Notes under the pieces: generated by a model
What the model was told of the DNA's origin: nothing
The model's database searches: none
What the model saw: the letters and a program-made list of their open reading frames with translations, nothing else
Assembly: GCA_007130125.1 (NCBI GenBank)
Contig: SLSZ01000122.1
Span: forward strand, 1 to 39,657
DNA from: Bacteroidales bacterium
Lineage (GTDB): Bacteria; Bacteroidota; Bacteroidia; Bacteroidales; UBA7960
Direction of reading: 5' to 3'
Length of the DNA: 39,657 nt
Made by a program: the position numbers and the translations under genes
In this document: positions 2,640 through 39,595 of the stretch, piece after piece
Layout of the letters: every line of letters starts with the position of its first letter
Position numbering within the stretch: the stretch's first letter is position 1

Positions 2640-3284
2640 TTAATGATCTTCAATTTTTTTTAGGGCGAAACTCAAATGTCTGTGCGTTTCGTGAGTCAGG
2701 AAAACGAACTCCCAATTATGTTTAAAGCAAAATTCATTTACAGCTTCCACTACACCGAAGGCTTTACCTTTTATGTAATGTCGTGGGGTGTAGTCATGTC
2801 CGGCAATAATGCCACCTGTTTTGACTTTTTGTAGGCAAAGCTCCAGCTCTGCCTTGGTAGTATAGTACGTGTGGTCGGTATCCAAATAAACCCAGTCGAA
2901 ATGTTTGTCAGGAAAACTATGCAGGATTTTTTCAGAATCTCCATGGTGAACTTCGATGATCCCAAGCTTGATCTGTTCTTCAAATCTTTTTTGAACGGCA
3001 GCTTTTGCTTTATTGTCAAACATTTTTGACTGCCAGTTGTCGATCAGGTGAAGTTTTTGCGGGCTTGTCAGATCAAGTATTTTTTCAGAAAACCTTCCTT
3101 TAGCGACACCTGCTTCAGCAATTACCGCATTTTTAGGTAATTGCTGAAGCAGGTCGAGCCTTGTTGGAACAACTACAATGTTTGTTAAATGCTTTTTTTG
3201 CAGTTGGTAATATGGTGGCTTTTCTTTTCCTGAAAGCCTTTGTTTAAGAATGTTTGATAAGAAATATTTGTTGCAGAAGCCCAT
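2640..3284 (-). CDS. class I SAM-dependent methyltransferase (214 aa)
   Basis: SAM motif I-like AVIAEAGVAKGRFS, HLIDNW, HHGDSEKIL, FDWVYLDTDHTY, GGIIAGHDY. Confidence 0.8.
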   Translation of the reverse strand: MGFCNKYFLSNILKQRLSGKEKPPYYQLQKKHLTNIVVVPTRLDLLQQLPKNAVIAEAGVAKGRFSEKILDLTSPQKLHLIDNWQSKMFDNKAKAAVQKRFEEQIKLGIIEVHHGDSEKILHSFPDKHFDWVYLDTDHTYYTTKAELELCLQKVKTGGIIAGHDYTPRHYIKGKAFGVVEAVNEFCFKHNWEFVFLTHETHRHLSFALKKIEDH

Positions 3285-10643: not shown

Positions 10644-11654
10644 TTAACCGTTTTGTTTTAAAGAGCAATAATCTCCAATACTAATATCAAGAACACTGCC
10701 CGAAAGGTTAACGTGGTTTCCTACCATTGAATTTTCCAAAACTGCATAACGCAGGCTTGACCGGCTTTGTATAATTGAGTTGCTTATCAGGCATCTTTTT
10801 ATGGTTGTGTTGTTACCGATAGAGGTGTAAGGACCAACTACAGAGTTTTCTATTGTAACGTTTTTTCCTATAAAACAAGGGTCTATAATTATGCTGTTTT
10901 TTATTATGGCTTCAGGGTCAATGAGTTTTTCATTGCGCGACAGATCCAGTATTCTTTGATTGGTATACACTGTAGCGTCTTTATTGCCGCAATCAAGCCA
11001 CTCTTTCACTTTGTCTGTGGTGAACCTTACACCTTTTTGCTTCATGTTTTCTAAAGCATCAGTGATTTGATACTCTTTGTTTTTTACAATATTGTTATCT
11101 GTAAGGAATTGCAGTTCTTTTTTTAAGTTTGCTCCGTTTCGGAAGTAGTAAATACCAATAATTGCTTTGTCAGAAACAAAAGTTTTTGGTTTTTCAAAGA
11201 AGTCAGTTATATATCCGTTATCATCTGTTTTGACCACTCCGAAGCTGGCAGGGTCTTTGACTTTATGAACCCACACTGTGGCGTCGTTCTCTTCATCAAG
11301 TTTAAAATCGGCATCAAACAGAGTATCTGCAAATGCAACAATAACTTTTCCTTCAAGTGCCTGCTCTGCACAAAGTACAGCGTGAGCTGTACCCAGAGCT
11401 TCTTCCTGGTAAAAGATCTTTCCTTTGGCACCATGCCTGGCAGCAATGTCCAGGAGATTCTTTTCAACATCTTCGCCAAACTCTCCTGTCACAAAAGCTA
11501 TTTGATCAACCTTTTCAGTAACAACTTTAACTATGCTTTCAACTAGTCTTTCAACAATAGGCTTGCCCGCAACCGGGATAAGAGGCTTGGGTATAGTCAG
11601 TGTATGCGGCCTCATCCGCTTGCCTATTCCTGCCATAGGTATTATGATGTTCAT
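10644..11654 (-). CDS. sugar-phosphate nucleotidyltransferase with left-handed beta-helix C-terminus
   Basis: MNIIIPMAGIGKRMRPHTLTIPKPLIPVAGKPI; EALGTAHAVLCA; C-terminal hexapeptide-like repeats. Confidence 0.87.
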   Translation of the reverse strand: MNIIIPMAGIGKRMRPHTLTIPKPLIPVAGKPIVERLVESIVKVVTEKVDQIAFVTGEFGEDVEKNLLDIAARHGAKGKIFYQEEALGTAHAVLCAEQALEGKVIVAFADTLFDADFKLDEENDATVWVHKVKDPASFGVVKTDDNGYITDFFEKPKTFVSDKAIIGIYYFRNGANLKKELQFLTDNNIVKNKEYQITDALENMKQKGVRFTTDKVKEWLDCGNKDATVYTNQRILDLSRNEKLIDPEAIIKNSIIIDPCFIGKNVTIENSVVGPYTSIGNNTTIKRCLISNSIIQSRSSLRYAVLENSMVGNHVNLSGSVLDISIGDYCSLKQNG

Positions 11655-11771: not shown

Positions 11772-12206
11772 TTAATTTGTGCCGGTATGTCCAAATCCGC
11801 CTTCTCCCCTTTTTGTGTTGTTAAGGTTGTCAGTGGCTTCCAGCTCTGCTCTTTCGTGCTTTGAAATAATCATTTGAGCTATACGGTCGCCGTTTTTTAT
11901 AGTATACTCCTGGTTGGAGAGGTTTATTAATATAACTTTTATTTCTCCTCTGTAATCGGCATCAATAGTGCCGGGAGTGTTTAGTACTGAAATGCCGTGT
12001 TTGTGTGCCAGCCCACTACGTGGCCTTACCTGTGCCTCAAAACCTTCGGGAAGCTCAATGTGTAAACCGGTTGGAGTCAGATGTCGTTCCAGTGGCTTTA
12101 AAGTAATATCTTCCTTTAAGTTGGCTCGCAGGTCCATACCTGCTGATAAATCCGTTTCATATGAAGGGAGAGGATTGGATGAATTATTTATGATTCTGAC
12201 TTTCAT
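11772..12206 (-). CDS. dut: dUTP diphosphatase
   Basis: dUTPase motifs [54 protein letters not shown]. Confidence 0.96.
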
Positions 12207-34960: not shown

Positions 34961-37900
34961 ATGTCTACAGATAAGTTTTATGTTACTCCATTGCGGCAGT
35001 TAATAGAGATTATATTTAAACAGCTTGATGTTAGTGGTGAGGTGTTTAACATTCCCCGGGAGCTTTTTTATTTTAACAAGGGTAATGAGTCATATGTTAG
35101 TGAGCGTTTCGGGCAGGTACTTGAAACACCGATTGGTGTTGCTGCCGGTCCGCACACTCAGCTAAGTCAAAACATTGTTGGCGCATGGCTTACAGGCTCA
35201 AGGTTTATTGAACTTAAGACAATACAAACGCTCGATGAGCTTGAAATAGCAAAACCTTGTATTGATATGCAGGACGAAGGTTATAACTGCGAGTGGTCGC
35301 AGGAGCTAAAAATCGAACAGTCATTCAGCCAGTACCTTGATGCCTGGATACTTATACACATACTTAAGGACAAACTCGGAGTTGGCCGTAAAGATCAGCC
35401 CGGCTTTATTTTCAATATGAGTGTTGGCTATGACCTGGAAGGGATTTTAAAACCTAATGTACAATGGTTTTTTGATAAAATGGCTGATGCTTCGCAAGAG
35501 TTGCAACAAAAGATTGATTCCATAAAAGATATTTACCCAAAGGTTGTGGATTTGAATATCAGCCCGAATCTTTCAGACAATGTCACCTTGTCAACAATGC
35601 ATGGATGCCCGCCCGGCGAAGTTGAAAAAATTGCTCTTTACTTATTACGGGAAAAGAAGCTTCATACCGCTGTAAAGTTTAATCCAACCTTGCTTGGAAA
35701 GAACGAGCTGCATGAGATTTTGGGCAAGTCAGGCTTTGACACCAAAGTTCCGGATCAGGCTTTTGAACACGATCTTAAATATAATGATGCTTTAAAAATC
35801 ATTAGTAACCTGAGAAAAGCTGCAACTGAGAACAATTTGCAATTCAGTTTAAAGCTCACAAACACTCTCGAAAGCATTAATCACAAAGAGGTTTTCCCCT
35901 CAGAGGTTGATATGATGTATAATAGCGGCAGGTCTGTTCATCCGGTTTCGGTTGCTCTTGCCAATAAATTGCAACAAGAGTATAATGGTGAACTTGACAT
36001 TTCTTTTTCCGGCGGAGCTCATGCTTTCAATATTGCGAAACTTGTTTCCTGCGGACTGGCACCGGTCACTGTGTGTACTGATTTGTTGAAGCCCGGAGGC
36101 TATGGTAGACAGCGTCAATATATAGAGGAGATTAATAGTGCATTTTTGCAGGCAGGAGCTAAAAGCGTTGAGGAATTTATAACAAAAACGGCAGGCAAGA
36201 ATGAGAAGTCTTTTAGTGAAAGCATATTGCAAAACCTGAAGAAATATTCTGAAGAAACTATACAAAGCGGATTTTATAAAAAAGAGGATCTTCATGATCC
36301 CAGCATAAAGACAGATCGACCATTGGGATTTTTTGACTGCATATATGCTCCTTGCGAGGATACCTGCTCAACAAACCAGGATATTCCCGGTTACAATTAT
36401 CATGCTTCGAAAGGCAACTTTGAAGAAGCCTCTAAGGTTGTTCTCCAAACAAATCCGTTTCCCCGCACTACCGGTATGATATGCGATCATTTATGCCAGA
36501 CAAAGTGTACAAGGATAAATTATGACAAGCCGGTATTAATAAGAGAGATAAAGCGGTTTATTGCTGAAAGGGCTGCACAGGAATTTCCCGGGCAAATACC
36601 TTCAGAGGTAAAATCAAAAGCTTCCAAAAAAGTGGCCATTATTGGGGCCGGGCCTTCGGGGTTTTCTGCCGCCTACTTCCTTGCTATGGCCGGATTTACG
36701 GTAGAGATTTTTGAAGGGAAGAACAAACACGGCGGAATGGTTTCGGGAGTTATCCCTGCATTTAGGCTTACGGATGAAGCAATAGACGATGATGTGAAAA
36801 GAATAAAAAGGCTTGGAGTGAAAGTTCATTTCGGCGTGGAAGTTAACAAACAAAAGTTTGAAGATTTAAAAAGCAAATTTGATTATGTCTATATAGCTGC
36901 CGGCGCACAGAAGTCAGCCCGTTTGAAAATAGAAGGGATAGATAGCAAAGGAGTCATTGATCCTCTCGAATTACTTGAGAAAGTTAGAAGCGGCACATAT
37001 CCAAATATTGGCAATACTGTTGCTGTAATCGGAGGAGGCAATACAGCTATGGATGTTGCCAGAACAGCTTACAGGCTGGTTGGAAAAAGCGGAAAGGTAA
37101 TTGTCATTTATCGCCGCACTGTGAAGCAGATGCCTGCTGATATAGGTGAGATCAAAGCAGTTATGGAGGAAGGCATAGATGTGATGGAGCTTACGGCTCC
37201 TGTAAAAATAAACACAGAAAAAGGTGCAGTAAAATCTGTTACTTGTAAAAAAATGAAGCTGGGAGATAAAGATGAGAGCGGAAGGCGAAGGCCGGTGGAA
37301 ATATCGGGTTCAGAGTTTGAAGTAAAGGTTGACACTGTTATACCTGCCATAGGCCAGGACATTGTTTTTGATTTTGGCGATGGTAACTCTTTAAAAGCTA
37401 AGGATGACAGTTATGAAACAAACCTAACAAACGTATTTATTGGTGGCGATGCTATGCGTGGGGCGGCCACTGCAATAAAAGCAATTGGAGATGGCAGGAA
37501 AACAGCTCAAATAATTATTGACAGAGAAGGCATTAGGTTTAACACAAAACCTGAAAATAAACGAACAGAACTTAGCAAAACAGAACACCTTCTGACCAGA
37601 GCTAAAAGAGTTTTCCCTGTTGAAAAGAAAGAAAAACCCATTAACAACAGGAAAAACTTTGACCTTATAGCTTCTTCAATTACCGAAAAAGAAGCTGTGG
37701 AAGAAGCAAAAAGATGTTTGCTGTGTGATGAGATATGCAACATATGTACAACGGTATGTCCTAATTTTGCCAACTATTCATACAAGGTTAAACCGGTTGC
37801 TTACAAGTTGAAAAAAGCTGTTAAGCCACCTGAAGGTGATCCTGATCTTATTGATGATGTTGATTTTGAGGTTAAACAGCAATACCAGATTTTAAATATA

Positions 37901-38269
37901 GTCAACTTCTGCAATGAGTGTGGCAACTGTAATACTTTTTGCCCCTCGGCAGGAGCGCCTTATAAAGAAAAACCAAAAGTACACCTGACTGTTGAATCAT
38001 TTAATGACGCACAGGAGGGGTATTACTTTGCAAATCTGCCCGATATAAAGAACCTTATATACAAGAATAACGGCAGTATTAGCACTCTTGGAGATACCGG
38101 AAGTGAGTATGTTTATGATAACGATAATGTTTTTGCACGCTTCAATAAAGAGAATTTTGAAATTAAAGAAATCAAGTTTCTGAATCCCGCCTTAGATAAA
38201 GCTGATTTTAGGGAAGCTGCATTTATGAGTGTTGTTATGAAAGGTGTGGAGGGCTTGGTGTTTGGGTGA
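34961..38269 (+). CDS. ygfK: YgfK-like putative selenate reductase subunit / GltD-type FAD and Fe-S oxidoreductase
   Basis: Dihydroorotate dehydrogenase-like N-domain (TPIGVAAGPHTQLSQNIVGAW), GltD-type CEDTCSTNQDIPGYN...CDHLCQTKC, FAD/NAD motifs VAIIGAGPSGFSAAY and VAVIGGGNTAMDVAR, C-terminal Cys clusters CLLCDEICNICTTVCP and CNECGNCNTFCPSAGAPY. Confidence 0.85.
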   Translation: MSTDKFYVTPLRQLIEIIFKQLDVSGEVFNIPRELFYFNKGNESYVSERFGQVLETPIGVAAGPHTQLSQNIVGAWLTGSRFIELKTIQTLDELEIAKPCIDMQDEGYNCEWSQELKIEQSFSQYLDAWILIHILKDKLGVGRKDQPGFIFNMSVGYDLEGILKPNVQWFFDKMADASQELQQKIDSIKDIYPKVVDLNISPNLSDNVTLSTMHGCPPGEVEKIALYLLREKKLHTAVKFNPTLLGKNELHEILGKSGFDTKVPDQAFEHDLKYNDALKIISNLRKAATENNLQFSLKLTNTLESINHKEVFPSEVDMMYNSGRSVHPVSVALANKLQQEYNGELDISFSGGAHAFNIAKLVSCGLAPVTVCTDLLKPGGYGRQRQYIEEINSAFLQAGAKSVEEFITKTAGKNEKSFSESILQNLKKYSEETIQSGFYKKEDLHDPSIKTDRPLGFFDCIYAPCEDTCSTNQDIPGYNYHASKGNFEEASKVVLQTNPFPRTTGMICDHLCQTKCTRINYDKPVLIREIKRFIAERAAQEFPGQIPSEVKSKASKKVAIIGAGPSGFSAAYFLAMAGFTVEIFEGKNKHGGMVSGVIPAFRLTDEAIDDDVKRIKRLGVKVHFGVEVNKQKFEDLKSKFDYVYIAAGAQKSARLKIEGIDSKGVIDPLELLEKVRSGTYPNIGNTVAVIGGGNTAMDVARTAYRLVGKSGKVIVIYRRTVKQMPADIGEIKAVMEEGIDVMELTAPVKINTEKGAVKSVTCKKMKLGDKDESGRRRPVEISGSEFEVKVDTVIPAIGQDIVFDFGDGNSLKAKDDSYETNLTNVFIGGDAMRGAATAIKAIGDGRKTAQIIIDREGIRFNTKPENKRTELSKTEHLLTRAKRVFPVEKKEKPINNRKNFDLIASSITEKEAVEEAKRCLLCDEICNICTTVCPNFANYSYKVKPVAYKLKKAVKPPEGDPDLIDDVDFEVKQQYQILNIVNFCNECGNCNTFCPSAGAPYKEKPKVHLTVESFNDAQEGYYFANLPDIKNLIYKNNGSISTLGDTGSEYVYDNDNVFARFNKENFEIKEIKFLNPALDKADFREAAFMSVVMKGVEGLVFG

Positions 38270-38271
38270 TA

Positions 38272-38721
38272 CTATTCTTTTTCCAATCTATTTCTTAGTT
38301 GCACCATTTCTGCTGTCGAAATTACAGATAAATAGCCATTTTCTTTTAGCCCTTTTATGAGTTTTTTATCACCTGTCCAAAGAATAGAATCCATATAATC
38401 ATTTAATGCTACAAACGCAACATCTTTATAATCAACATCCTTTACCAATTTTACGGCTTGTTTAAAATACTTCTCCGGTATCTGTTCTTCATTAACAAAT
38501 AGTATCTCGCTACAAACCAGGTATTCGATCTCAACTAATTCTTTATGTGTTTTTTGTGCCAATTCCATAAGCTTGTACCGGTGAGTTTCAATTTCATTCC
38601 TAAGATAATTGCAACTGTAAAACTTAAACAATTCGCCGGAGTTCAATAACAAATCTCCAATGGTACTATCTGTATTCAGAATGGCACTAAAAACAAGGTT
38701 TGTATCAACTACTATTCTCAT
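38272..38721 (-). CDS. PIN-domain putative toxin (VapC-like ribonuclease)
   Basis: MRIVVDTNLVFSAIL; VKDVDYKDVAFVALNDYMDSILWTGDKKLIKGLKENG; 4-bp ATGA overlap with upstream small ORF. Confidence 0.85.
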   Translation of the reverse strand: MRIVVDTNLVFSAILNTDSTIGDLLLNSGELFKFYSCNYLRNEIETHRYKLMELAQKTHKELVEIEYLVCSEILFVNEEQIPEKYFKQAVKLVKDVDYKDVAFVALNDYMDSILWTGDKKLIKGLKENGYLSVISTAEMVQLRNRLEKE

Positions 38722-38921
38722 TTTATAAATCTATCCTTGTTCTTTAACCACCAGTTTTTATCGATTTTATTAGCAAGGTAATCAGCATCTTGTTGTTCTA
38801 CCTTTGACCCGGATGTTAATTCTTTGTATCTGATATAGTTGATAAACTTTTGAACACCTTCTATATCTACATTGCCTGGTATCCGAATAACTATTTCCTT
38901 ATCTGTTCTTTCAATAATCAT
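38718..38921 (-). CDS. small putative antitoxin (67 aa) partnered with PIN protein
   Basis: Short ORF overlapping the PIN start by 4 bp; IIERTDKEIVIRIPGNVDIEGVQKFINYIRYKEL. Confidence 0.7.
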   Translation of the reverse strand: MIIERTDKEIVIRIPGNVDIEGVQKFINYIRYKELTSGSKVEQQDADYLANKIDKNWWLKNKDRFIK

Positions 38922-38938
38922 AACATAATTAGTTTATA

Positions 38939-38946
38939 CAAAGATA
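38939..38946 (-). promoter_or_regulatory. candidate -7 element for the PIN/antitoxin pair
   Basis: Minus-strand TATCTTTG (TAnnTTTG) 18 bp upstream of the antitoxin ATG; no well-spaced -33 element found. Confidence 0.35.
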
Positions 38947-39075
38947 GTAATAATATTAATCAATTTTTGTAAGTAAAACTTGATAAGCATTTTGCATCTG
39001 ACGATATTTTAGCGCTTTTCAGCTCCTCACAGCCGGCTCCTGCCGGAGCGTTTCGTGTTTACGTATTATCACGTC

Positions 39076-39356
39076 CTGTTGAATCATTTAATGACGCACA
39101 GGAGGGGTATTACTTTGCAAATCTGCCCGATATAAAGAACCTTATATACAAGAATAACTGCAGTATTAGCACTCTTGGAGATACCGGAAGTGAGTTTGTT
39201 TACGAAAACGATAATGTTTTTGCAAGGCTCAACAAAGAAGATTTTGACATTAAAGAAATCAAATTCCTGAATCCCGGTATAGAAACATCTGATTTTAGGG
39301 AAGCTGCAGTTATGAGCGTTATTATGAAAGGTGTGGAGGGTTTGGTGTTTGGATGA
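39076..39356 (+). pseudogene. partial duplicate of the 3' end of the ygfK-like gene
   Basis: 281 bp aligned without gaps to 37989-38269 with 24 mismatches counted by eye; open reading frame VESFNDAQEGYYFANLPDIKNLIYKNNCSIST...VEGLVFG* but no start codon. Confidence 0.92.
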
Positions 39357-39595
39357 TGAAAAATTTTAATTAATTTTATTCATAATCATAATAATATATC
39401 AATAGCCGAAGCATTCGTGCTACGGATTAAATGTTTCCCCCCGGGGGGTATTGTCGGTAAATTATCCACCACACAAATGTGGTGTCTAATAATTTTAAAA
39501 TATAATTTTTTGATGTTGATTTAATTACAATACGTCATATCAATAGCCATGGTATTCATTATCTGTTTTCGTAAAGAAAAAGCAGGGTATAGATT

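Follow-up and report, generated by a model that had tools for sequence, protein, structure and literature searches.

A PIN/antitoxin pair between two copies of a ygfK-like gene 3' end, probably the scar of a single chance recombination

The window analysed here is the entire contig 28 (39,657 bp) of a draft genome of 2.82 Mb in 261 contigs. It contains an intact ygfK-like gene whose 3' end occurs a second time further downstream, and two small genes, for a PIN domain toxin and a putative antitoxin, are located between both copies of this end and are convergent with ygfK. The features referred to below are the following:

34961–38269, + strand: ygfK-like gene, intact, 1102 aa (NCBIfam TIGR03315, 925 bits against a cut-off of 835)
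37989–38269, + strand: copy 1 of the ygfK 3' end, within the intact gene (its final 92 codons and the stop codon)
37989–38108, + strand: 5' section of the repeat, nearly identical in the two copies (120 bp with 1 mismatch; exact for 83 bp)
38272–38721, − strand: PIN_2 toxin gene, 149 aa (Pfam PF10130, E 7e-23)
38718–38921, − strand: putative antitoxin gene, 67 aa, adjoining the PIN start upstream with a 4-bp overlap
39027–39076, + strand: element E, left half of a REP-like interspersed repeat, cut at the junction (6 other near-full copies)
39076–39356, + strand: copy 2 of the ygfK 3' end, without an in-frame start near its beginning
39388–39560, + strand: element F, interspersed repeats of a second type downstream of copy 2, common to genus mates

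The TIGR03315 family is the putative selenate reductase subunit YgfK, and the window gene is referred to as ygfK-like. The nearest other YgfK was about 56% identical in a contig search from whose search set near genomes may be missing, and the closest relatives sit on contigs of metagenome-assembled Bacteroidales/Bacteroidota genomes. The distribution of ygfK is patchy, as it was undetected in the three genus mates searched (89–96% complete) and is present in many more distant relatives. The tRNA and Rfam scans of the window were empty, and PADLOC and PDB searches gave no useful result.

The PIN protein has acidic residues near D6, E43, D96 and D119, in conserved columns of an alignment of nine sequences. 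In eight other PIN loci, a homologue of the 67-aa ORF is the immediate upstream neighbour of PIN. Judged from sequence, the two genes probably form an ordinary, intact type II toxin-antitoxin (TA) pair. Its activity is a predicted one. It shares with known type II modules with PIN_2 (PF10130) both the PIN domain with its acidic residues and a small upstream gene that overlaps the toxin start and recurs in relatives; it differs in that the putative antitoxin matches no Pfam or NCBIfam model. The stop codon of the PIN gene (38272–38274, minus strand) lies 2 nt past the ygfK stop at 38269, as an earlier, preliminary description of this DNA had stated. The observation made there that no integrase is visible was also confirmed: only the PIN and antitoxin ORFs are present between the copies.

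The same description reported a second copy of the last 281 bp of the gene (39076–39356), gapless, in the same orientation and with an intact frame, and this proved correct. The direct repeat (D1) spans 37989–38270 and 39076–39357, which is 282 bp with 91.5% identity, no gaps and a start-to-start distance of 1087 bp. Of the 281 positions up to the stop codon, 257 are identical and 24 mismatched, without any indel, and the frame of each copy runs through to TGA. As a background, a sample of 96 contigs (0.763 Mb) was searched for direct pairs of 200 bp or longer lying within 6 kb. Other such pairs were found only in contigs C1, C8, C9 and C44, and among these identity exceeded 90% only in C1, in a cluster of three related tandem copies. 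Repeat D1 is far beyond chance. Copy 2, which ends 300 bp from the contig end, is probably a non-functional remnant. Two properties of the repeat had been overlooked before, namely that identity is uneven along its length and that copy 2 begins within a truncated interspersed repeat.

This truncated repeat, element E, defines the left edge of copy 2. All six other near-full copies of element E in the genome run on into a right half; they read ...TCC/GTG(c/a)G...CACACGG and their second hairpin is GTGCGTTTCACACACGG or a close variant. At the edge of copy 2, ...GTCC passes directly into the ygfK sequence TGTTGAATC, and element E breaks off after the first two bases of its second hairpin. Base 39076 is common to element E and copy 2. 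With the repeat-family consensus as reference, the joint between element E and ygfK has an overlap of about 1 bp, and this one junction is therefore near-blunt and without extended homology. Of 38 other genomes searched, 37 gave no match to element E and one, a genus mate, gave a single weak match. Contamination from another organism was considered as the source of element E, but this is unsupported, as the element occurs on several contigs of the genome and weakly in the genus mate. The tetranucleotide usage of contig 28 is typical.

Element E is regarded as REP-like because two copies bracket a Y1/RAYT-type gene on contig 168. There (genome G000), the RAYT gene (L278, 11347–11691; Y1-transposase, RAYT-type, PF01797) is flanked by near-identical E copies at 10937–11031 and 11795–11888 (L270, L272). 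It could be suggested that the RAYT of the genome, a Y1 HUH transposase, made the junction in the window by linking the REP hairpin to single-stranded ygfK DNA. In favour of this, the joint coincides with the base of a REP-like hairpin and the genome has RAYT genes, including the one between full copies of element E, but such a reaction alone explains neither the second ygfK end nor the polarised mismatches described below. We consider it the least probable of all explanations discussed here.

Downstream of copy 2, element F consists of GGGCTAAAGCCC-type hairpins, plus CCACCACATAAATGTGGTG. It matches sequences in two genus mates (85% over 121 bp in G003 and 78% in G002), and further copies are found in contigs C4, C35 and C78. 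The presence of a repeat of the genus mates 3' of copy 2 is what one would expect were copy 2 the resident gene end followed by its own downstream DNA.

The differences between the copies are strongly polarised. There is 1 mismatch in the first 120 bp and there are 23 in the last 161 bp, which are about 14% diverged, and the change point is best placed at 120 (permutation p 2.5e-4). When counted by codon, with mismatch 121 belonging to codon 40, 1 of the 22 differing codons is located within the first 39 (p 1.4e-5). Stronger protein constraint was rejected as an explanation for the identical 5' stretch: in an alignment of the C-termini with 39 YgfK relatives, the mean modal residue frequency was 0.46 in both parts of the repeat. 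Relatives thus conserve the two parts of their C-termini to the same degree, and the identity of the 5' part must have a historical cause. At the residues that differ, relatives agree with copy 1 about as often as with copy 2 (90 and 96 matches, respectively). The changes in the diverged part are mostly conservative, and their spread over the three codon positions (8/3/13) is biased to the third. These properties suggest that both copies diverged as functional alleles, and most likely the two 3' ends diverged inside working genes and were joined later. At residue 28, the sole difference in the 5' part, copy 2 has Cys instead of Gly. Cys occurs there in none of the 39 relatives, which fits a mutation after copy 2 lost function.

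An in-place duplication of the ygfK 3' end, followed by insertion of the TA pair and drift of copy 2, would also give two copies in the same orientation with near-identical first 120 bp. It does not account for 23 changes in the last 161 bp versus 1 in the first 120 bp. Moreover, the mostly conservative nature of the changes, and the retention by copy 2 of residues common in relatives, are unlike drift in a dead copy, which makes this course of events highly improbable. Instead, the polarised mismatches point to one crossover that would have taken place inside the homologous gene segment.

We propose that the arrangement is a scar which probably goes back to a single chance recombination event with DNA of a diverged relative. 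The donor fragment, of about 1.1 kb, would have contained the ygfK end of this relative, the convergent PIN and antitoxin genes and half of a REP-like repeat. Two routes can be envisaged. In the first, the fragment ends would be ligated, the repeat end to the ygfK point matching 37989, to give a circle of about 1.09 kb, which could then integrate by a single RecA-type crossover in the 83–120 bp of near-identical ygfK. In the second, a linear fragment would undergo homologous recombination at the ygfK end and an illegitimate join back to ygfK at 37989. Either route would yield a whole ygfK with a donor-derived 3' end (copy 1) and then the TA pair, followed by the displaced 3' end of the resident (copy 2) and its old downstream DNA. 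We thus infer the donor, the circle or one-sided crossover, and the identity of the resident copy from the observed arrangement, in which a direct repeat of part of a chromosomal gene flanks unrelated DNA, as in such scars. A crossover within the 83–120 bp of near identity would explain both the polarised mismatches and the intact host gene. On the other hand, a simple single crossover should leave donor and resident alleles differing over the full length of the repeat, unless they already matched, or were converted, in the first 120 bp, and this counts against the proposal. It also counts against it that no donor and no empty site was found, the three genus mates searched being without detectable ygfK and the nearest other YgfK being about 56% identical. 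The preliminary description, in which a TA cassette carried or duplicated a replacement 3' end, is supported in part: one of the two ends would stem from another, functional ygfK allele, and ygfK itself was left whole, as had been supposed there.

The main alternative to this recombination scar is that the contig is a chimera that arose during library preparation or assembly. In that case the ygfK end would continue in strain 1 into PIN, antitoxin and REP and in strain 2 into the F repeats, and the branch contig of strain 2, with a stretch common to both strains before the divergence, would have been misjoined behind that of strain 1. The genome is a draft of 261 contigs and, as mentioned above, copy 2 ends close to the contig end. 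Among the sampled contigs, three pairs of ends share an overlap of exactly 121 bp, overlaps of 101 and 81 also occur in traces, and no Ns are present in those contigs that were readable. Together this suggests that a multi-k de Bruijn assembler was used, with no scaffolding step. The exact stretch of 83 bp is near k=81, and contig C8 starts with exactly 81 bases common to an internal paralogue and then diverges. At that place (L157, contig 8 of G000, 1–502 and 2718–3219) the first 81 bases are those of an internal paralogous response-regulator/kinase gene, and it looks like a k=81 graph break. However, a length of 83 rather than 81 is, by our own estimate, about equally predicted by either model, and the absence of any sign of scaffolding does not favour a misjoin. 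More importantly, the overlap at the junction is about 1 bp with the repeat-family expectation. A k-mer collision fails to explain this, because a false join needs shared k-mers, so that a chimeric molecule or an unusual local assembly would be required. We therefore consider a chimera unlikely, although it deserves far more weight than the other alternatives.

Another possibility follows the logic of islands, with which the preliminary description had compared the locus: the TA cassette would have been moved into the gene 3' end by site-specific recombination, with the recombinase acting in trans. The intact host gene, the size of the cassette (about 0.8 kb) and the duplicated 3' end in the same orientation agree with this. 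Yet there is no integrase or recombinase gene between the repeat copies and no tRNA in the window. A short att core at both edges was not found either; copy 2 starts inside a broken REP rather than at a core site and the repeat is 281 bp long, with an identity gradient that is typical of a homologous crossover. In addition, a second example is lacking. Among 91 other ygfK loci none has a duplicate 3' end or a PIN gene, and duplicated gene 3' ends were likewise absent from the PIN loci examined. The other cassettes between duplicated 3' ends for which the preliminary description proposed to look did not turn up in either set. A cassette that targets gene 3' ends, as it had inferred, is not supported, since the joint lies within a REP-like repeat, where the overlap is about 1 bp and a shared core is lacking. 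Nothing suggests a dedicated gene-insertion system at the window locus, and we regard site-specific movement as very unlikely.

Several other repeats came up in these searches. Those near PIN homologues in L077 and L083 were rejected as duplicated gene ends, as they are dispersed repeats. Similarly, the direct repeats near ygfK in L065, and those elsewhere in the locus in L131, are hairpin repeats flanking a Y1/RAYT-type gene and not gene ends. In both loci (L065, 2103–3134; L131, 7043–8176) a RAYT-type gene (153 aa, MANTYTQ...) has direct hairpin repeats of 240–340 bp on either side, and the RAYT unit of L065 is located directly 3' of the ygfK stop codon. Contig 13 of G000 (L162) has a non-coding direct repeat of 94 bp with 98% identity (1581–1674 and 2528–2621). 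It encloses a segment of small genes of TA-like appearance, by eye similar to DUF4258/DUF2283, together with a PIN-like fragment, and this segment closely follows a HicBA-like pair. Lastly, on contig 56 of G000 (L204, 750–895 and 1952–2097), a 146-bp piece from the start of a lipoprotein-like gene recurs 1.2 kb upstream in a truncated copy, with 92% identity.

If the recombination scar is real, it would be a readable natural case in which foreign genes came to lie next to a conserved gene with no recombinase involved and with that gene kept intact, and in which the crossover zone, the non-homologous joint and the displaced gene end are all still visible. It would also caution that a small cassette within a duplicated gene 3' end need not mean an integrase system. 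A wider idea would be that small TA modules spread among strains of Bacteroidales as circles of a TA pair plus the 3' end of a neighbour gene, which enter by homologous crossover without a recombinase and are possibly closed by RAYT/REP hairpins. We give this even less credence than site-specific movement.

The arrangement is best filed as a natural case of a known type of recombination scar. Integrase islands that replace gene or tRNA 3' ends likewise leave the host gene with a working 3' end and a duplicate at the far edge, but the window differs from them by having no integrase, no att core, a far larger repeat and no recurrence. A closer parallel is found in E. coli, where single crossovers of re-circularised fragments gave partial duplications of the target gene in 56 of 60 selected clones, with lengths of 109–950 bp in the sequenced ones (PMC3240628). 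Here, too, foreign DNA lies within a short direct duplication of the target gene, although that system consisted of a laboratory plasmid with a selectable marker, whereas the window is natural and part of its repeat represents alleles that are about 14% diverged. In the same experiment, homology at the four true joints of homology-facilitated illegitimate recombination (HFIR) was 0–1 nt (PMC3240628). Classical HFIR usually deletes recipient DNA, whereas the window shows a duplication, and this counts against a scar formed by HFIR. For T6SS immunity arrays, and likewise for Rhs loci, it was proposed that old 3' ends were displaced by HFIR (PMC5361080). These arrays share with the window homology at one end, a non-homologous join at the other end and an old 3' end downstream of the newcomer. 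They differ in that the target is an effector gene and the displaced immunity gene is useful, whereas in the window the target is a metabolic gene and its displaced end is without evident use.
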